Below are positions 1,861 through 10,211 of a DNA stretch of 64,000 bases, piece after piece. The notes below the pieces were generated by a model, which saw nothing but the letters and a program-made list of their open reading frames with translations, searched no databases and was not told where the DNA came from. The stretch comes from Olsenella profusa F0195 (GTDB taxonomy: Bacteria; Actinomycetota; Coriobacteriia; Coriobacteriales; Atopobiaceae): contig NZ_AWEZ01000043.1 in the NCBI RefSeq assembly GCF_000468755.1, positions 1 through 64,000 on the forward strand, given 5' to 3'. The position numbers were made by a program, and so were the translations under genes. Position 1 is the stretch's first letter. Every line of letters starts with the position of its first letter.

Positions 1861-1928
1861 CATACACACGCCCGACCAAGGTAGGGGAGACCGCCGTCTC
1901 GTGAACAACCGATACGATGGTACCGACC

Positions 1929-2534
1929 CTACAGCATGACGACGTTGGTGCGGCTCACGAGGATCTGCGCGATGTTGTACGGCTGGATGATGTCACCGAC
2001 CTCCACCTGCTCCGTCAGGCCATATCCGTCAAGGCTCACGGCCTCGGAGTGGATGTCCGCCCCCAGCGCCTCGATCATCTTGAGCTGGTCGATGATGTCG
2101 CTACCCGTGGTGGTGAGCTTGACACCGCTGTTGACGAAGACGAGCTCCTGTGGTGCCACCTCCTGCAAGGCCATGTCGTAGATGATCTCGCCCATGAGAA
2201 TGCGGCCGAGCTCCTTGTCGCCACAACCGACGGCCTCCGACCCAATGATGACCGTCGGCTGCTGATCGATCACATCCATGAGGGCAACGGCCCGCTCGAT
2301 GGGCTTGTTCGTGACGATGGGCTCCGTGGGGGCAAGCGTGACCACCGTGTAGTCGCCCTCGTCTTCGCGCATGAACTTGCAGTGCTGCTCGTCGGCAAGC
2401 CTCACCAGGCTCTCCACCGCCATGCCATCATTGACGGAGACGGCGAGCGTCTCGCCCTCCCTGAGCTCCGACAGCGCCTCGAGTGCCATGATGACCGGCT
2501 TGGGGTTGAAAAGATCGCGTGCATCGACTTGCAT
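1929..2534 (-). CDS. YedF-like protein (TusA-like plus DsrE-like domains) lacking the usual cysteines
   Basis: The ATG at 2534 is preceded closely by GGAGATGGAGG, so it is preferred over an ATG 16 codons upstream. The 201-residue protein has two domains: a TusA/SirA-like N-terminus (MQVDARDLFNPKPVIMALEA) and a DsrE-like C-terminus (VFVNSGVKLTTTGSDIIDQL), the layout of the selenium-metabolism protein YedF. In TusA domains the core motif is CPxP; here it reads NPKP, so the sulfur-carrying Cys is gone. The DsrE half also lacks the Cys pair often seen near its end. A persulfide-relay role is therefore doubtful. It follows rnfB on the same strand with a 160-base gap, so co-transcription with rnf is possible but not shown. 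Confidence 0.75.
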   Translation of the reverse strand: MQVDARDLFNPKPVIMALEALSELREGETLAVSVNDGMAVESLVRLADEQHCKFMREDEGDYTVVTLAPTEPIVTNKPIERAVALMDVIDQQPTVIIGSEAVGCGDKELGRILMGEIIYDMALQEVAPQELVFVNSGVKLTTTGSDIIDQLKMIEALGADIHSEAVSLDGYGLTEQVEVGDIIQPYNIAQILVSRTNVVML

Positions 2535-2695
2535 GGCTCCTCCATCTCCGGCTTGGATGTGGCCGTTCCCCTCCTCTGACATTCACATGTGACTTGTACC
2601 TTAGTGCAGATGCGGCACAGCCATTGTTAACACTTACGAACGGCCCCGTTTTCGCTGTTTGCGGTCGGCCAGCGGAGCTGCGGGGCACGCGGGAC

Positions 2696-3526
2696 CTAGA
2701 CGAGAGCCCCCTTCTCCCGGCGCGAGAGGTCGATGGGACGGATGGCCTTCGCGGGGCACACCTCGATGCAGCTGCCACAGCCCGTGCAGCATGCGTCGTT
2801 GATCCGGGCGACGTGGTCCATGACCGTGATGCATCCCTCGGGGCAGGCCCCCACGCAGCGTCCGCAGCCGATGCAGGCGTTGGCACAGGCCTCCTGGGCG
2901 CGCTTGCCCATCATGGTGTTGCGGCACAGGACGACGGAGGAACTGTCCGTCTGCGAGCGCTCGTGAATGGCGATGACATGGCGCGGGCATACGTCCACGC
3001 AGATTCCACAGGCCGTGCAGCGCCCGACGTCGATCGCGGCGACGTGGTTCCCGTTGATGCGGATGGCGTCGAAGGGACACGACGCCACGCAGTCGCCGAG
3101 CCCCAGGCAGCCATAGGTGCACGACTCCGTCATGTACCCCATGAGGTCGAAGACGCGGCAGCTGGGGTCGCCCTCGTAGGCCTCCACAGAGCGCAGGCGG
3201 TCGGCGGCGCCGTTGCAGGTGACGACGGCCTTCCTCACCGTGGTGTGACCGGGATCCCTGCCGAGGTAGAGCGCGATGGCGTTGGCCGTGGCCTCCCCTC
3301 CCGGCCCGCAGAGGTCGCAGGGGGCGCCCGCGAGGATGGCGCTGGCGTAGCCCGCACAGCCCGGGTTGCCGCACGAGCCACAGTTAAGGCCGGGCAGCAT
3401 GTCTATGACGTGCCACAGCCGCGAGTCCACCTCCACGGAGAAGAGCCTGGACCCTATCACGAGGATGACGCCGCCCACGAGACCGATGACGACGATGAGG
3501 AGGACGGAGTGGATGATCGTCTGCAT
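2696..3526 (-). CDS. rnfB: Rnf complex subunit B, polyferredoxin
   Basis: This is the membrane-anchored iron-sulfur subunit that passes electrons from ferredoxin into the Rnf complex. The 276-residue protein starts with a transmembrane segment (about residues 5-27). Next comes the Fe-S domain typical of RnfB (CGSCGNPGC near residue 50), then ferredoxin-type clusters: CVASCP, CTACGICVDVCP, CIGCGRCVGACP and CTGCGSCIEVCP. The start has a strong ribosome site (GGGGGAGGGC) just before ATG. It is the last rnf gene, 9 bases after the rnfA stop. All cluster cysteines appear intact, in contrast to rnfA and rnfE upstream. Confidence 0.93.
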   Translation of the reverse strand: MQTIIHSVLLIVVIGLVGGVILVIGSRLFSVEVDSRLWHVIDMLPGLNCGSCGNPGCAGYASAILAGAPCDLCGPGGEATANAIALYLGRDPGHTTVRKAVVTCNGAADRLRSVEAYEGDPSCRVFDLMGYMTESCTYGCLGLGDCVASCPFDAIRINGNHVAAIDVGRCTACGICVDVCPRHVIAIHERSQTDSSSVVLCRNTMMGKRAQEACANACIGCGRCVGACPEGCITVMDHVARINDACCTGCGSCIEVCPAKAIRPIDLSRREKGALV

Positions 3527-3535
3527 GCCCTCCCC

Positions 3536-4126
3536 CTAGACGCCGAAGAGGTTCTCGATGACGCCCGCGAAGCCCATGAAGGCCATCGCCACGATGGCGG
3601 CGGCCATGAGTGTGATGGGCATGCCCTTGAAGGCCTCGGGAGGGTCGGCCTCCTCCACCCGCCGCCGCACGCCACAGAAGAGGACCATGGCAAAGAGGAA
3701 CCCCAGCCCCCCGCCGAGCGCCGCCACGAGCGACTCCAGGTAGGTGTAGCCGTCCTCGATGGCAAGGATGGTGACGCCCAAGACGGCGCAGTTGGTGGTG
3801 ATGAGCGGCAGGTACACACCGAGCGACGTGTAGAGCGGCGGGAACTGCTTGCGGATGGCCATCTCCAGCAGCTGCACGAGGATGGCGATGACGAGGATGA
3901 AGGCGATGGTCTGCAGGTATCCGATGCCCCAGAGGTCCAGGAGCTGCTAGATGGGCCAGGTGACCGACATGGCGACGACCATCACCAGCGTGACGGCCGC
4001 CCCCATGCCCACGGCGGAGTCAAGCCGCTTCGAGACGCCCAGGAAGGGGCACATGCCCATGAACTTCGCGAGCACGAGGTTGTCCGAGAGGATCATGCCG
4101 AAGAGAATCGCCGCGTAGGTCGCCAT
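3536..4126 (-). pseudogene. rnfA: Rnf complex subunit A, interrupted by an in-frame TAG
   Basis: RnfA is an integral membrane subunit of about 190 residues. Reading from ATG 4124-4126, which overlaps the rnfE stop, the frame gives a clear RnfA start (DNLVLAKFMGMCPFLGVSK). It then hits TAG (CTA on plus, 3947-3949) at codon 60, right after SVTWPI. The same frame continues without further break to 3536 with the rest of RnfA (GVYLPLITTNCAVLGVTILA). The full frame is 196 codons, the normal family length. A single C-to-T change (CAG to TAG) would explain it. An internal ATG at 3877 would give only a 113-residue tail. It is either a real nonsense mutation, a sequence error or a suppressed stop. Confidence 0.88.
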
Positions 4127-4623
4127 CAGGCCTCGCCCCCCTCCCCACTTCCGGCGAGCGCTCCCTCGGCCCGCACGAGGGAGGCCCCCACGTCAGGCCC
4201 GACGCACTCGCTGCCAGCCGTCGTGCAGCCCAGGCCGCATGACGCGCAGACCTCCTCCGCCGTGCGGGACGGACGGGCGGCCAGGCCCGCCCGGCGCTGC
4301 CGGGCCTGCTCCAGCCAGATGGAGGCCGCCATCACGACGGAGAGGGTGACGAAGCTCGCGACGATGGTGATGTAGGCCGGCAGGCGCACCGTGGTGGGGA
4401 TCACCCGCCTGAGGAGCGACACCACGACCCCGGAGCACACGAGCACGAAGGTGGTGGCCGCCCCCATGCCGATGCCGTTCGTGACCGCCGTGGTGATGGC
4501 CAGCGTCGAACAGAGCCCGAGCATCTGGCGCAGGACGGGGTTGTCCTTGAGGATCCCCTGGGAGAACACCCCTGACAGGGCCGGTGTCCGCCCGTCTTTG
4601 GCCCCCTCGTTCCTCTCGCTCAT
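4126..4623 (-). CDS. rnfE: Rnf complex subunit E, apparently shortened by an internal deletion
   Basis: RnfE is normally a six-helix membrane protein of about 200-230 residues and a homologue of RnfA. This product is 165 residues. Residues about 28-100 match the first three helices (NPVLRQMLGLCSTLAITT, GMGAATTFVLVCSGVVVSLL, LPAYITIVASFVTLSV). The second half of the usual fold, including the conserved stretch like PLIVVNC before helix 4, is missing. The sequence goes directly to a basic segment (WLEQARQRRAG) and a Cys-rich tail (CASCGLGC). The start overlaps the rnfG stop (ATGA), and AGGAGGTG lies upstream. Its stop overlaps the rnfA start. The loss keeps the frame, so a protein is made, but Rnf function is doubtful. 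Confidence 0.75.
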   Translation of the reverse strand: MSERNEGAKDGRTPALSGVFSQGILKDNPVLRQMLGLCSTLAITTAVTNGIGMGAATTFVLVCSGVVVSLLRRVIPTTVRLPAYITIVASFVTLSVVMAASIWLEQARQRRAGLAARPSRTAEEVCASCGLGCTTAGSECVGPDVGASLVRAEGALAGSGEGGEA

Positions 4624-5183
4624 CCCTGCACCTCCTGGTATGCCTCGATCGCCCGGTTGAACGCCAGGACGTATGCCTTCGAGGAGATAGTCGCCCCACT
4701 GATGGTGTCAACGTCCGCGAGGGCGACCTCCTCGGCGGGACGTCCCACGAACTGGTCGGAGAAGTCGGGCTCTGCGACCCGCTTGCCCAAGCCCGGCGTC
4801 TCCTCGTTGTCCATGGCAACGATGCTCCCGACGCTGCCATCGAGGAAGAAGGAGACGGCGATGGGAAGCTCCCCGCCATAGCCCTGAGCCTCGGCCACCA
4901 CCACATAGCCGATGGGCGCGCCCGTCGCATCGAGCGCGCGCAGCGCCGTGGTGACGCCCTCGACCTCGCAGGGGACCTCCTCGAAGCGCGCAGCGTCGGG
5001 CATGAGAGAGCGGTAGGTGGCCTGGGCGCGCTCCCGCGCCGCATCGGCGATGACAGGGGCCGTCAGGGCATTGACGAGGGCGAGCAGCACGCTCGCCACG
5101 AGACAGATGGCAACGAGCACGAAGACAGGCCGGCCCGCCTTGAGGACGAGGGGGAGGATCGCCCCCTCCCGTGGCCTACTCAT
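4620..5183 (-). CDS. rnfG: Rnf complex subunit G, FMN-carrying
   Basis: RnfG carries a covalently bound FMN outside the membrane. The ATG at 5183 has GGAGG 8 bases upstream, so it is preferred over a GTG three codons earlier; the product is 187 residues. There is one N-terminal membrane helix (about residues 16-38), then an FMN-binding domain with the flavinylation motif DTISGATISS near residue 160, whose second Thr is the attachment residue. ETPGLGKR is also typical. It overlaps rnfD at its start and rnfE at its end, indicating tight translational coupling. The modifying enzyme ApbE is encoded nearby but interrupted. Confidence 0.93.
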   Translation of the reverse strand: MSRPREGAILPLVLKAGRPVFVLVAICLVASVLLALVNALTAPVIADAARERAQATYRSLMPDAARFEEVPCEVEGVTTALRALDATGAPIGYVVVAEAQGYGGELPIAVSFFLDGSVGSIVAMDNEETPGLGKRVAEPDFSDQFVGRPAEEVALADVDTISGATISSKAYVLAFNRAIEAYQEVQG

Positions 5184-6159
5184 GGGTCTCACCTCCCCGG
5201 TCCCGCAGCCGCACGCGCAGGCTGGGCCTGGTGCCGCCGAGGGGCGTGTCCACCGTGAGCTCGTTGATGTAGGGGGCGAGGAGGTTCATGAAGAGGATCG
5301 CGTAGGCGCAGCCCTCGTTCATGTTGCCCCAGAAGCGGATGAGGCAGGTGATGAGGGCGAGGCCGATGGCATAGGCCACCTTGCCCTGGGGCGTGATCGT
5401 GGCAGTGGGATAGTCCGGCGCCATGAAGACGGCGCCCAGCATGAGGCCGCCCGAGAGCACCTGGGCCGGGGCGTCCAACCCCATGAGGGCCGAGAGGACG
5501 AAGACGAGGCCCACGTAGACGACGGGGATATGCCAGATGATGGTGTGGGTGGCCAGGAGGTAGGCGAGTCCCACCAGGATGGCCAGGGCGCTCGTCTCTC
5601 CGAGGGTGCCCATCTCGGTGCCCACGAACATGTCCCAGAGGGGGATCCTGGTCGCCGAGGGGGCGAGCATGGTGGCCGAGCTCACCGCGTCGACGGAGGA
5701 GAGCGTGACGCGCGGGACCACCCAGGTGGTCATGGCCGCGGGGAAGGCTATGGACAGCACGATGCGCCCCATGATGGCTGGGTTGGCGAAGTTGCAGCCG
5801 ATGCCTCCGAAGAGCTCCTTGGTGAGGATGATGGCCACGAAGGCACCGACCACGACCATGTAGGTGGGCATGCCCGCCGGTATGTTGAAGGCCAGAAGGA
5901 CACCCGTGACCGCGGCCGAGAGGTCGCCCACGGTGCTCGGGACCTTCCTGAGACGGCACCACAGCCACTCGAGGAGCACGCACGCGACGACGGAGGTCGC
6001 CGTGACGCGCAGGGCATCGAGGCCGAAGAGGACGAGGGACGCCACGAGGCAGGGTGCCAGGGCGATGAGGACGTTCCGCATGATGGTGCGCGTGGTGACG
6101 GGCGTCACGAGCTGGGGTGCCGGCCCCAGCGAGAGCGTTACGTTGGGTTCCCTCGACAT
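5176..6159 (-). CDS. rnfD: Rnf complex subunit D, membrane FMN subunit
   Basis: RnfD is a multi-helix membrane protein with a covalently linked FMN, thought to take part in ion translocation. The start MSREPNV at 6159 follows GGGAGGGGC and lies one base after the rnfC stop; the product is 327 residues. Motifs include ILTKELFGGIGCNFANPAI and the flavinylation site AVSSATMLAP. The usual form of that site is SGAT; here Gly is replaced by Ser, with the acceptor Thr kept. It ends inside the start of rnfG. The length and helices are normal for the family. Confidence 0.93.
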   Translation of the reverse strand: MSREPNVTLSLGPAPQLVTPVTTRTIMRNVLIALAPCLVASLVLFGLDALRVTATSVVACVLLEWLWCRLRKVPSTVGDLSAAVTGVLLAFNIPAGMPTYMVVVGAFVAIILTKELFGGIGCNFANPAIMGRIVLSIAFPAAMTTWVVPRVTLSSVDAVSSATMLAPSATRIPLWDMFVGTEMGTLGETSALAILVGLAYLLATHTIIWHIPVVYVGLVFVLSALMGLDAPAQVLSGGLMLGAVFMAPDYPTATITPQGKVAYAIGLALITCLIRFWGNMNEGCAYAILFMNLLAPYINELTVDTPLGGTRPSLRVRLRDRGGETHE

Positions 6160-6160
6160 G

Positions 6161-7435
6161 TCAGCCCCTCCCTTCCCTGCGACGCTCCGCCTTGAGCATC
6201 CTGCGGGCGAGCCCCACGGAGGGGGTGAGCGGCTGGTGGGAGGGGCACACATAGGAGCAGGTACCGCACTCCACGCAGAGGTCCACCATGAGGGCGTCGA
6301 GGGCGGCCACGTCCCTGCACCGATAGGCCCGCTGTATCTCCATGGGCGAGAGCATCATGGGGCACGAGTTGATGCAGGTCCCGCAGCGGATGCAGGCGGT
6401 CGTACGGGCGCTCGTGGGCGTGTGGTCGCCGAAGGCCAGAAGGCCGCTCTCCTGGCGCACGATGGGGGCATCGAGGTTCACCTGGGCCTTGCCCATCATG
6501 GGTCCACCGATGATGACCTTCGTGGGCTCGCGTGCGATGCCACAGTGCGCGAGCACCTCGCGGATGGGCGCACCGATGCACACCTCGAGGTTCTGGGGGC
6601 GCGCGACGGCATCGCCCGTCACCGTGATGCGCCTCCGTATGAGGGGCATGCCCGTCTGGAGGAACCCGCCGATGGCCGACATGGTCGTCACGTTGAAGAG
6701 CATGACGCCCACGTCGGTGAGATGGCCACCGCGCGGCACGGCACGGCCCGTGACCGTGCGCACCAGCACGCGACTGGCCCCCTGTGGGTAGCGGGAGGGC
6801 AGCACGTGGACGTCGATCTGGGGCCTGTCCGCGCAGAGCCGCCGCAGGAGCTCGATGGCCTCGGGCTTGTCGTCCTCGATGCAGATGAGCGCGCGGGGAA
6901 CGCCCGAGAGGTCGAGACAGGTCTGGATGCCCAGGAGGATGTCGTGGGGGTGCTCGAGCATCTCGCGAAAGTCGCTCGAGATGAAGGGCTCGCACTCGGC
7001 GGCGTTGACGAGCCAGAGGTCGATGTTGGCGAAGTCGGCGTCCATCTTGAGGGCGGTGGGGAACCCCGCACCGCCCAGGCCGACGATGCCGCTGTGCTTG
7101 AGCGCCTCGACGAGGCTGGCATAGTCCGTCACCTGGGGCCTGCGCACGGACGCATCGACGGTCTGCCCGCCGTCCGGCTCGATCACCACCACCTTGTCCG
7201 CCCTGCCGTTGGCGTAGAAGGCGTCGCGGACCTCCATCACGGTGCCGGAGACCGGCGAGAAGATGTCGGCCGTGGTGCGCGCCTGGGAGTGGCCGACGCG
7301 GGTGCCCACGTCGACGTGCGCCCTGCGCTTGACGAGGGGCTCGCACTGGGAGCCCACATGCTGCTGCATGGGGAGCACGACCGACGAGCGCGCCATCCCA
7401 CCACAGGGGGGGTATCCATCGTGAGGGCAGTCCAT
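6161..7435 (-). CDS. rnfC: Rnf complex subunit C, NADH/FMN and iron-sulfur subunit
   Basis: RnfC is the peripheral subunit that exchanges electrons with NAD. The 424-residue frame from ATG 7435 contains YPPCGG and VVLPMQQHVGSQCEPL (N-terminal barrel), the nucleotide loop GLGGAGFPTALK near residue 130, and two 4Fe-4S motifs near the C-terminus (CIRCGTCINSCP and CVECGTCSYVCP). It is the first gene of the rnf operon. The start is not certain: no good ribosome site precedes ATG 7435, and an ATG at 7396 would drop the YPP part. With start 7435 the gene overlaps the divergent NusG_II gene by 15 bases at the 5' ends. Confidence 0.88.
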   Translation of the reverse strand: MDCPHDGYPPCGGMARSSVVLPMQQHVGSQCEPLVKRRAHVDVGTRVGHSQARTTADIFSPVSGTVMEVRDAFYANGRADKVVVIEPDGGQTVDASVRRPQVTDYASLVEALKHSGIVGLGGAGFPTALKMDADFANIDLWLVNAAECEPFISSDFREMLEHPHDILLGIQTCLDLSGVPRALICIEDDKPEAIELLRRLCADRPQIDVHVLPSRYPQGASRVLVRTVTGRAVPRGGHLTDVGVMLFNVTTMSAIGGFLQTGMPLIRRRITVTGDAVARPQNLEVCIGAPIREVLAHCGIAREPTKVIIGGPMMGKAQVNLDAPIVRQESGLLAFGDHTPTSARTTACIRCGTCINSCPMMLSPMEIQRAYRCRDVAALDALMVDLCVECGTCSYVCPSHQPLTPSVGLARRMLKAERRREGRG

Positions 7436-7885
7436 GTCGTTAGGACCTACTGGGCCACGTTCGTGGTCGGCATCGCCGTGACGGCCCTGCTCGTGGGTTC
7501 CCTCGTCGCGGGGGGCCAGGCTCGCCTCCCCACGGGAAGCGCCCCCGTCGCCGTCGTGCATGATGCGGACGGACACGTCTGGCGGCTCCCCTTGGACACG
7601 CCCACCACGCTGGAGGTCACCTCGTCCCTCGGATCCAATACCATCATGGTCGCAGACGGTGCCGCACGCATGACGGACGCGGACTGCCCCCACGGCTCGT
7701 GCCTGCGACAGACCCCCATCAGCGAGACCGGCCAGCAGCTCATCTGCCTTCCCCACCAGCTGTGGGTCGAGGTCGTGCCCGCGCGAGGCGAGGACACGGC
7801 ACAGGACGGCACGCAGGCCGACGTCGACGCCGTGGGCTGGAAGGACGAGAGACAGGCCTCCGACGTGGATGTGACGGCCCGCTGA
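7421..7885 (+). CDS. NusG domain II (NusG_II) protein, membrane-anchored
   Basis: The GTG at 7421 has AGGGGGG about 8 bases upstream. The 154-residue product has one N-terminal helix (about residues 10-32) and an outside domain of the NusG_II family: WRLPLDTPTT, GSNTIMVADGAARMTDADCP, then CLRQTPISETGQQLICLPHQ. This family is common beside rnf, Gx transporter and apbE genes in anaerobes; its role there is not established. It starts a plus-strand unit divergent from rnf and is followed by the Gx-EcfT gene after one base. The two close Cys and the later Cys may bind metal or form a disulfide; that is inference. Confidence 0.8.
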   Translation: MRAVHVVRTYWATFVVGIAVTALLVGSLVAGGQARLPTGSAPVAVVHDADGHVWRLPLDTPTTLEVTSSLGSNTIMVADGAARMTDADCPHGSCLRQTPISETGQQLICLPHQLWVEVVPARGEDTAQDGTQADVDAVGWKDERQASDVDVTAR

Positions 7886-7886
7886 C

Positions 7887-9098
7887 ATGGGAAGGCACCG
7901 ACAGAGGGAGGTCACGGACCATACGCTTCCCTGGGAGCGCGTGGGTGCCCTCGTCGCCCTCGCGCTCGTCCTGGGGTACCTCGAGTCCTTCGTCCCCCTG
8001 CCCATCCCCGGTGTCAAGCTGGGCCTCGCCAACATCGCCATCCTCGTGGCCCTCTATGAGTTGGGGGCGCGGGCGACCCTGTGCGTGTGCGTGGTGAAGG
8101 TGCTTGCCGTGGGACTCCTCTTTGGCAACCCTCTCATGATTGCCTACTCCGCCCTGGGGTCGCTCCTCGCCCTGGGAGGCATGGCCCCGCTCTCCCGCCT
8201 GCGGACGCTGCATCCCGCCATGACCTCGGTCGTCGGTGGCATCCTCCACGAGCTGGGACAGCTCTGCGTGGCCTGGTGGCTGCTGGGGACGTCCCTCGTG
8301 TGGTATGGTGCACCGCCGCTGTTGGTGGTGGGTGCGCTCACCGGGGGGCTGACGGGCATCCTGGCCGGTTGGGTCCTCGAGGCACTCGGGGACATGACGG
8401 AGCCTGGTGCCAGACCGGCGTCCTCGGCCTTGCGGCCCCCCGAGCGCCATGTCGCCCTGGCGACGGGCGCCGCACCCGCCCGGCATGCGGGCGCACGCCT
8501 CGCCCTGCTTGTCGCCTATGCCGTCGCTCTCGTGCGCCTCGGGTCACTCCCCCTGCTCCTTGCGGCCACCGGCGCCACTCTCGTGGCCTGCCTGGTCGCC
8601 CGCGTACGGCCGCGCCTGGCGGCGCGAGGCCTCGTCCCCCTGCTCCTCCTGGCGTTGCTCACCTCTGCCCTGCAGGTTGCCACGGTGAGCTCCGGCCTGG
8701 TGCTGGCCTCCCTGGGGCCCGTCCTCGTCACGAGCGATGGCCTGGCGCAGGCCGCTGCCATGACGCTGCGCATCCTTGCCATCACGCTCGCGAACGTCGC
8801 ATTCGCCTCGCATGTTGGCCTGGAGGATCTCGTCCCCACCGTGCGGTGGGCCCTCTCACCCCTCGACAGGTTGGGCTTCGATCTCGAGGGGCCGCTCCTG
8901 GCGCTCTCCATCGCCACGGGCCTCGCCCCCCTGCTCGCCGATGATTTGGTCTCCTGCTGTGCCGACCGGGGGGCGCGCATGCTGTCGTGCACGTTCTGGC
9001 AGCGGGAGGTCGCCTCCCGCGTCGCCCGCGCCTACCTGCATGCCAACGGCGCGCCGCCGCTGACGGCCTCGCGTACGGATGGAGGTGCCCTCGGATGA
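7887..9098 (+). CDS. Fusion of a Gx transporter (S-component-like) with an EcfT-like transmembrane protein
   Basis: The 403-residue membrane protein has two recognisable halves. Residues about 18-175 match the Gx transporter family, once called heptaprenyl diphosphate synthase component I: PGVKLGLANIAILVAL, GGILHELGQL and GALTGGLTGILAG. A linker of about 30 residues (176-205) follows. Residues about 206-390 match CbiQ/EcfT-type energy-coupling subunits, with several helices and a charged ADRGARM segment where EcfT carries its ATPase-coupling motif. No ECF ATPase is encoded in the window. Position between NusG_II and apbE suggests a role in flavin supply for flavinylation, as EcfT-like FmnA has in Listeria; that is inference. 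The stop overlaps the apbE start. Confidence 0.75.
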   Translation: MGRHRQREVTDHTLPWERVGALVALALVLGYLESFVPLPIPGVKLGLANIAILVALYELGARATLCVCVVKVLAVGLLFGNPLMIAYSALGSLLALGGMAPLSRLRTLHPAMTSVVGGILHELGQLCVAWWLLGTSLVWYGAPPLLVVGALTGGLTGILAGWVLEALGDMTEPGARPASSALRPPERHVALATGAAPARHAGARLALLVAYAVALVRLGSLPLLLAATGATLVACLVARVRPRLAARGLVPLLLLALLTSALQVATVSSGLVLASLGPVLVTSDGLAQAAAMTLRILAITLANVAFASHVGLEDLVPTVRWALSPLDRLGFDLEGPLLALSIATGLAPLLADDLVSCCADRGARMLSCTFWQREVASRVARAYLHANGAPPLTASRTDGGALG

Positions 9099-10147
9099 CC
9101 AGCCATGACGGCGAGCGTGCCCCGCGCGTCTGCTCCCGACGCGCGTTCCTGCGGTCCCTGGCCCTACTCCCCTTCGCGGCCAGCCTCCCCGCTTGCGCGG
9201 GGGGCCTGGCCACCCCGGGCGCGCCCCAGGAGCTGCAGACCACGACCTTCTGCTTCGATACGGCCTGCACCCTGCGTGGCGTGATGACCCAGGACGTGCT
9301 CGACGGGGTGGTCGAGCTCTGCCGGACCTTCGAGCGGCTCCTCTCGCGTACCATAGACGGGAGTGACGTGGGGCGCATCAACGCCACAGCCGGCACCTCC
9401 GTGGAGGTCGATCCCAGGACGGCGGAGCTCATCCGCCTGGCGCTGGGCTACTGCCGGGAGTCGGACGGACTCTTTGACATCACGATCGGCAGCGTGAGCG
9501 AGCTTTGGGACTTCAAGGGGGGCATCGTGCCGGACCCCGCCCAGATAGAGGCGGCGCTCCCCCACGTGGACTACACCAAGGTCCAGGTGGAGGGGAACCT
9601 GGTGACCCTCCTCGATGCCGACGCCAGGTTGGATCTCGGCGGCATCGCCAAGGGCTACATCGCCGATGCCCTCATCGCACAGCTGCGTGAGGCAGGCGTC
9701 ACGAGCGCCTTCGTGAACCTGGGCGGTAACGTCATGGTCATGGGTGGCAGGCCCGACGGCAGTCCCTGAACGATTGGCGTCCAGGACCCTGCGACAGACG
9801 CCGGCGAGGGGATCGTCGCCGAGGTCTCCCGCAGCGATGCGTCCGTGGTCACGAGTGGCCTCTACGAGCGTTGCTTCGAGCGGGCCGGCATCACCTACTG
9901 GCACATCCTCGACCCCAGGACGGGCTACCCCGTACGCGGTGACGTGGTGGGGGCGACCATCCTCTCCGAGCGCTCCCTCGATGGCGACGGGCTCACCAAG
10001 CCCCTCTTCATGCTCCCCGTACCCGATGCCCTCGCCTACCTCGAGTACCACGGTGTCCAGGGGCTCCTCGTCACCGGCGGGGGCGACATCCGCACGACCG
10101 GGGCGAGCGACTTCGGGCTGGTGGGCAGCCGCACGCGGAACGAGTGA
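9095..10147 (+). pseudogene. apbE: ApbE-type FMN transferase lipoprotein, interrupted by an in-frame TGA
   Basis: ApbE attaches FMN to Thr in proteins such as RnfG and RnfD. The ATG at 9095 has GGAGGTG 7 bases upstream and overlaps the previous stop. The start has a Tat-like RRAFLRSLAL and a lipobox (SLPAC), so a lipoprotein is expected. Family motifs include LDLGGIAKGYIADAL and NLGGNVMVMGG. The frame stops at TGA 9767-9769 after RPDGSP, exactly where the family usually has Trp. It then continues in the same frame with TIGVQDP and HILDPRTGYPV, which contains the conserved HxxDPxTG, to the true end at 10147. One G-to-A change (TGG to TGA) explains it. The truncated product lacks conserved C-terminal residues and is likely inactive. 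Confidence 0.9.
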
Positions 10148-10211
10148 TGACCAGTCGCGAACCTGCGCTAGAATTCCCTTGTATGTGCACCCGACCACGG
10201 TGGGAGGAACC

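Follow-up and report, generated by a model that had tools for sequence, protein, structure and literature searches.

An EetB-EcfT fusion with a shortened T half beside apbE in Olsenella profusa: a candidate FAD transporter subunit in an apparently decaying, putative Rnf flavinylation cassette

The open reading frame at 7887-9098 (+ strand) of the window, i.e. the whole stretch of 64,000 nucleotides of Olsenella profusa F0195 DNA that was analysed, starts with ATG and encodes a single chain of 403 amino acids, in which an EetB-type S half (residues ~11-173) is tied through a linker (~174-197) to a shortened, EcfT-derived T half (~198-389). In the explanation that we favour and consider likely, the protein is a single-chain FAD transporter subunit serving the flavinylation of Rnf by ApbE, with FAD perhaps moving down-gradient without an ATPase stroke, in a pathway that is decaying in this species. 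The cassette formed by the fusion, the NusG_II protein and ApbE would bring FAD to the outer membrane face, where ApbE would attach FMN to Rnf subunits. FAD as the substrate, export as the direction and Rnf as the client are suggested by homology to EetB together with the genomic context.

The gene is tightly packed between its neighbours. Upstream, a NusG_II domain protein of 154 amino acids (7421-7885; PF07009, E 4.3e-21), which we take from its context to be EetA-like, has its stop codon at 7883-7885, just before the fusion start at 7887, and the stop codon of the fusion (9096-9098) overlaps the ATG of apbE (9095-9097), a gene extending from 9095 to 10147, interrupted by an in-frame TGA at 9767-9769 and matching ApbE in both pieces; the fusion thus stands where the first-pass annotation had placed it, between NusG_II and apbE. 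These three genes lie on the + strand, and the rnf genes are divergent on the – strand in the order C, D, G, E, A, B. Four of them, rnfC (6161-7396, start uncertain), rnfD (5176-6159), rnfG (4620-5192, the sole FMN_bind match in the genome) and rnfB (2696-3526), give profile matches over open frames; rnfE (4126-4623) carries an in-frame deletion with its junction near 4342-4348, and the frame of rnfA (3539-4129) is interrupted by a stop codon at 3947-3949. The nearest intact counterpart (G034) has the identical layout of apbE, fusion, NusG_II and rnfCDGEAB. The observation that no ATPase gene is nearby is borne out in that none adjoins the fusion; elsewhere in the genome EcfA-like pairs, each followed by a T gene, are found on contigs C37 and C45, with scores below the TIGR04520 equivalog cut-off. 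After rnfB, the window also encodes a YedF-like selenium-metabolism protein (1929-2582, – strand; TIGR03527, 126 bits).

That an S-component-like and an EcfT-like domain are joined in one chain, as first noted from the letters, is supported by profile searches in Pfam, where residues 22-160 match PF07456 (E 7.9e-31, 107.5 bits against a cut-off of 30), covering positions 1-144 of the 147 of the profile, and residues 208-335 match CbiQ (PF02361, E 1.3e-5), at 25.4 bits only just over the cut-off of 25; the matches in NCBIfam are all under cut-off. The identical architecture was read in 22 other loci, so the fusion is not an assembly join. By sequence, the closest solved relatives are EcfT chains (E 0.002-0.003), and the match to RibU is not significant (E 6.3). 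Structure prediction of the halves had been proposed earlier; in an AlphaFold2 model built on an alignment of 23 fusions (mean pLDDT 84.4, pTM 0.82), residues 11-173 align to the riboflavin-type S-component RibU (3p5n_A, Z 12.9, 159 residues; 5kbw_B, Z 12.4) and residues 198-389 to EcfT (7nnu_D, Z 13.1, 192 residues, chain residues 18-221 of 261). Both halves were matched by this structural alignment; a Foldseek search with the whole model returned no match at E ≤ 0.001. The predicted fold of the S half is thus shared with RibU, which is in contrast an importer and a separate chain, with 17-19% identity to the S half. Since the model is also matched by S-components for folate, thiamine, pantothenate and biotin, within ~1-2 Z units of RibU, the cargo is not named by the fold alone. 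In 53 EetB-type sequences, fused and separate, 17 positions of the S half are at least 95% conserved.

The architecture and the function of such fusions are already in print, and the substrate has been answered for a homologue, so the earlier view that the substrate of these proteins is not settled is out of date. In Listeria, EetB (PF07456) is reported to bind FAD and to be needed for flavinylation, acting with FmnA and EcfAA′ in the export of FAD for ApbE, a process in which EcfAA′ is required (PMC9973259). The same 2023 paper counts 2,169 genomes in which eetB and apbE occur together and 572 Clostridia genomes in which eetB is accompanied by Rnf genes, and lists three EetB-ECF-T fusions (WP_021725833.1, MBE6480012.1 and MBQ3267887.1), which by its naming alone have the same domain architecture as the fusion described here; one of them may be the window fusion or a near protein. 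The Listeria exporter likewise combines a PF07456 S unit, a T-type partner and an ApbE (FmnB) encoded in the cluster, with flavinylation as the outcome (PMC9973259); it differs in that here S and T form one chain, the T half is without the second anchor region and the last helix, the client would be Rnf instead of PplA, and the cassette is broken in the species. The Discussion of that paper does not settle how an ECF machinery designed for uptake operates in the outward direction, and neither its Results nor its Discussion takes up decay or a truncation of the T part. Literature searches combining the Rnf complex with Coriobacteriia, or the Pfam name of EetB with ApbE, gave no match.

The T half departs from ordinary T subunits at the end that docks the ATPases, a truncation that the first-pass annotation missed. 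Two Arg motifs of T are reported as its contact sites with the ATPases (PMC3246461, PMC10368641), and replacement of either Arg leaves subgroup II transporters inactive (PMC3246461). The 23 fusions were compared with 21 ordinary T subunits, taken from this genome and from relatives (21 of the 23 T loci fetched, excluding L004, on the opposite strand, and L033, which is partial). In all 21 ordinary subunits an Arg, the first X-Arg-X anchor, stands 16 residues past a conserved Pro, and in 20 of the 21 a second Arg follows at 56-58 residues past it. By contrast, the first Arg is found in 4/23 fusions, namely the window (motif A-R-M), L053, L054 and L076, and no fusion has an Arg spaced as in the second anchor; the conserved Pro itself is missing in three. 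The statement that both anchors are missing in all 23 fusions was accordingly rejected, and a gapped alignment puts an Arg at the second anchor in two of them (window and L056). The chain remaining past the Pro measures 28-56 residues in the fusions versus 93-102 in ordinary T subunits, and past the motif-2 column 0-12 versus 36-45; the last membrane helix is absent from the T half of all 23 fusions aligned. In comparison with the solved EcfT/CbiQ chains (7nnu_D, 4rfs_T, 5x3x_q), the fusion shares the fold over residues 198-389, with Arg 295 and the P348 region conserved, but its tail is shorter, as the structural match stops at 221 of 261 in 7nnu_D.

At the other interface, helix 1 of the S half keeps W...G.L.A in 23/23 fusions, a small-xxx-small pattern, and AxxxA is described as the pattern by which S-components bind EcfT (PMC11109136). 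Given this conservation and the loss of the Arg motifs and of the last helix, the S-T contact appears to be kept in the fusions and the T-ATPase contact to be eroding. The nearest unfused relatives (L081 and L082) encode the S protein and a full-length T with both motifs in neighbouring genes, and in the tree, which excluded the short and very long-branched row L047 and in which L080 is unlabelled, a single branch (93/86, not starred) sets the fused rows apart, with these two as their neighbours. This arrangement, together with the single group of fused rows, suggests an order of events in which neighbouring genes were fused and the docking end was subsequently lost. The fusion is a clade-specific variant, with a truncated T half, of a known kind of protein. 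In Bacilli, T genes near EetB keep both motifs in six of twelve regions (L127, L129-L133), L134 (= L115) holds a T fragment only, and no T gene near EetB was found in regions L124, L125, L126 and L128. In L090/L116 and in L135 (= L122), the T gene immediately following EetB is without both X-Arg-X motifs and keeps the last helix; this may be a second instance of erosion of the ATPase anchors.

With the second anchor region and the last helix gone from the T half, and the helix-1 docking pattern retained in the S half, we tentatively propose that FAD follows its own gradient across the S-T pair instead of being moved by the usual ATPase stroke. Against an ATPase-free route stand the requirement for EcfAA′ in Listeria (PMC9973259), the retention of both motifs by T genes near EetB in the six Bacilli regions, and the window fusion itself, which keeps the first-anchor Arg and, in the gapped alignment, the second. 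In its stronger form, which we hold to be doubtful, the Atopobiaceae-type fusion would be an ATPase-free S-T pair, a passive FAD exporter or gate that shed its motor-docking end after fusion, the outward draw on FAD coming from its consumption by ApbE; if true, a transporter descended from the ECF type would here have abandoned its motor. A precedent for ATPase-free transport by an S-component is BtuM, a solitary S-fold transporter without ECF module, although BtuM is reported to import cobalamin and has no T domain (PMC6072759).

Two other ways of powering the S half have to be weighed. It might be driven by the housekeeping ECF module (EcfA-A′-T at C37 or C45), the fused T half being an anchor or a remnant, an alternative that we regard as unlikely but of some weight: the EcfA-like pairs and T genes required are present in the genome, subgroup II ECF modules are reported to be common to many S units (PMC3246461), and six loci in other families of the order have an S gene and no T gene in the stretch fetched. 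The predicted T fold is nevertheless retained across 23 diverse fusions, which is unexpected for a useless remnant, and the T half, being tethered, could act as a competitor in docking. Somewhat less probable in our view is an ATP-driven T-S subunit of the ordinary sort, in which the fusion binds EcfAA′ through altered or partly kept contacts. The first-anchor Arg of the window and three other fusions, the alignable second Arg in two, a profile comparison in which the T half and ordinary T subunits align across 196 columns and the need for EcfAA′ in Listeria (PMC9973259) would all fit such a subunit; it is opposed by the lack of an Arg at the second spacing in every fusion against its presence in 20/21 ordinary T subunits, by the loss of the first Arg in 19/23 fusions and of the last helix, and by the inactivity of subgroup II transporters in which either Arg is replaced (PMC3246461). 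Passive export, a borrowed housekeeping module or coupling of another kind may thus apply. A clade that has S and T joined and its ATPase anchors eroding offers a natural test of the need for a motor in FAD export.

As to the client, the first-pass annotation had proposed delivery of flavin for Rnf and a survey for links with apbE and rnf. The idea is not new (PMC9973259), but the genomic distribution agrees with it. In 60 genomes (own included) searched with the fusion protein, 37 of which form the family group f1, the full fusion was found in 6 and a match to the S half in 6 others, many further matches being to the T half only. RnfD (PF03116) occurs in 10/60 genomes, all of them among the 12 with a fused or separate S protein. 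Within the family, the fusion and RnfD are confined to the identical 6/37 genomes. Since the 37 genomes are related, they do not amount to 37 independent events, and the search could overlook a distant S protein. ApbE was rejected as the tightest partner at this level, as it is found in 11/37 family genomes versus 6/37 for the fusion.

At the level of the locus, alignment A2 comprised the window and 22 of 39 loci, excluding L067, L074 (run of N), L079 (odd 487-aa frame), L070 (near copy), L078 (copy), L080 (cut by the contig end), L081-L082 (separate genes) and L083-L091 (distant, S only). ApbE lies within the locus in 22/22 of these relatives, NusG_II in 21/22 (not seen in L055) and rnf in 1/22, five of the loci being only 4-10 kb long; adjacency to rnf was therefore rejected as a rule, yet the co-occurrence within the family is exact. 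FMN_bind is encoded by one gene in the genome of the window and by one in each of six other fusion genomes, and this single gene is each time RnfG, with other rnf genes around it, so that Rnf is likely the client of the fusion even where rnf lies elsewhere in the genome. Points against the favoured explanation are the CbiQ score barely over cut-off, the presence of rnf beside the fusion in a single relative's locus, and two S-bearing genomes of the 12 (G038 and G046) in which RnfD gave no match. That the cargo is another vitamin or cofactor, the place beside apbE being incidental, would accord with the matches of the model to the other vitamin S-components; it is made very improbable by the tight association with ApbE and Rnf and by the membership of the S half in PF07456, the EetB family, one member of which is reported to bind FAD (PMC9973259). 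In other families of the order (L042-L047), EetB-type S genes are solitary, with ApbE in the same stretch in 5/6, L043 being a 3.3-kb contig; none of the stretches fetched showed a T gene.

The lesions of the cassette, namely the TGA in apbE, the stop in rnfA and the deletion in rnfE, also escaped the first reading. The interrupted apbE is the sole ApbE match in the genome, which holds no intact ApbE, and none of the ApbE matches in the loci of the 22 relatives carries a stop. In rnfE, 303 bp between 7-bp repeats are lost in frame, removing 101 residues; a frameshift was considered for this gene and rejected, the loss being an in-frame deletion. A second genome of the species (G060), assembled as one contig, carries a fusion 97% identical to that of the window, an apbE with a different stop, at codon 45, a frameshifted rnfA and a full-length rnfE. 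The possibility that the TGA of apbE is a recoded residue was rejected, because the second strain has a Trp codon at that place and a separate stop of its own, and rnfA and rnfE are broken too.

The fusion differs between the strains by 15 non-synonymous and 6 synonymous changes, i.e. a dN/dS of 1.08 based on 21 changes only, versus 89:173 and 0.175 for 35 other genes of the window pooled, which lie outside 1900-10200 and were chosen by a simple GC3 rule (Fisher p 0.0015). The frames of rnfB, C, D and G have dN/dS values of 0.14-0.56 and still look constrained, which speaks against the favoured explanation but is as expected if the loss is recent. From these comparisons the pathway looks to be in the course of being dismantled in this species, with a fusion that seems to be without selective constraint between the two strains. 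That ApbE and Rnf are broken differently in two strains in which the fusion is losing constraint argues independently, though modestly, for a role of the fusion in flavinylation of Rnf. That the lesions are sequencing or assembly errors in a working system is the least credible alternative and close to dismissed, since the draft state of the assembly (2.72 Mb, 73 contigs) and the constraint on rnfB, C, D and G are outweighed by the distinct apbE stop and rnfA frameshift of the one-contig second genome, by a loss of 303 bp between repeats and by the finding that, among 44 window frames compared with G060 (picked as open in the window), only apbE has a stop in the aligned part.

Two rearrangements distinguish the strains further. 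The second genome has a 2.2-kb insertion between rnfC and NusG_II (L052, ~7800-10020), absent from the window, at the extreme 5′ end of rnfC or just upstream; it contains a DDE transposase gene (PF01609, E 1.8e-6) and is flanked by the 5 bp CGACC. In the window, the open reading frame at 127-942 is a chimera in which ~820 bp are missing at 601/602 relative to G060; its beginning comes from a radical-SAM-like protein and its end from a multi-helix membrane protein, both families being judged by eye.
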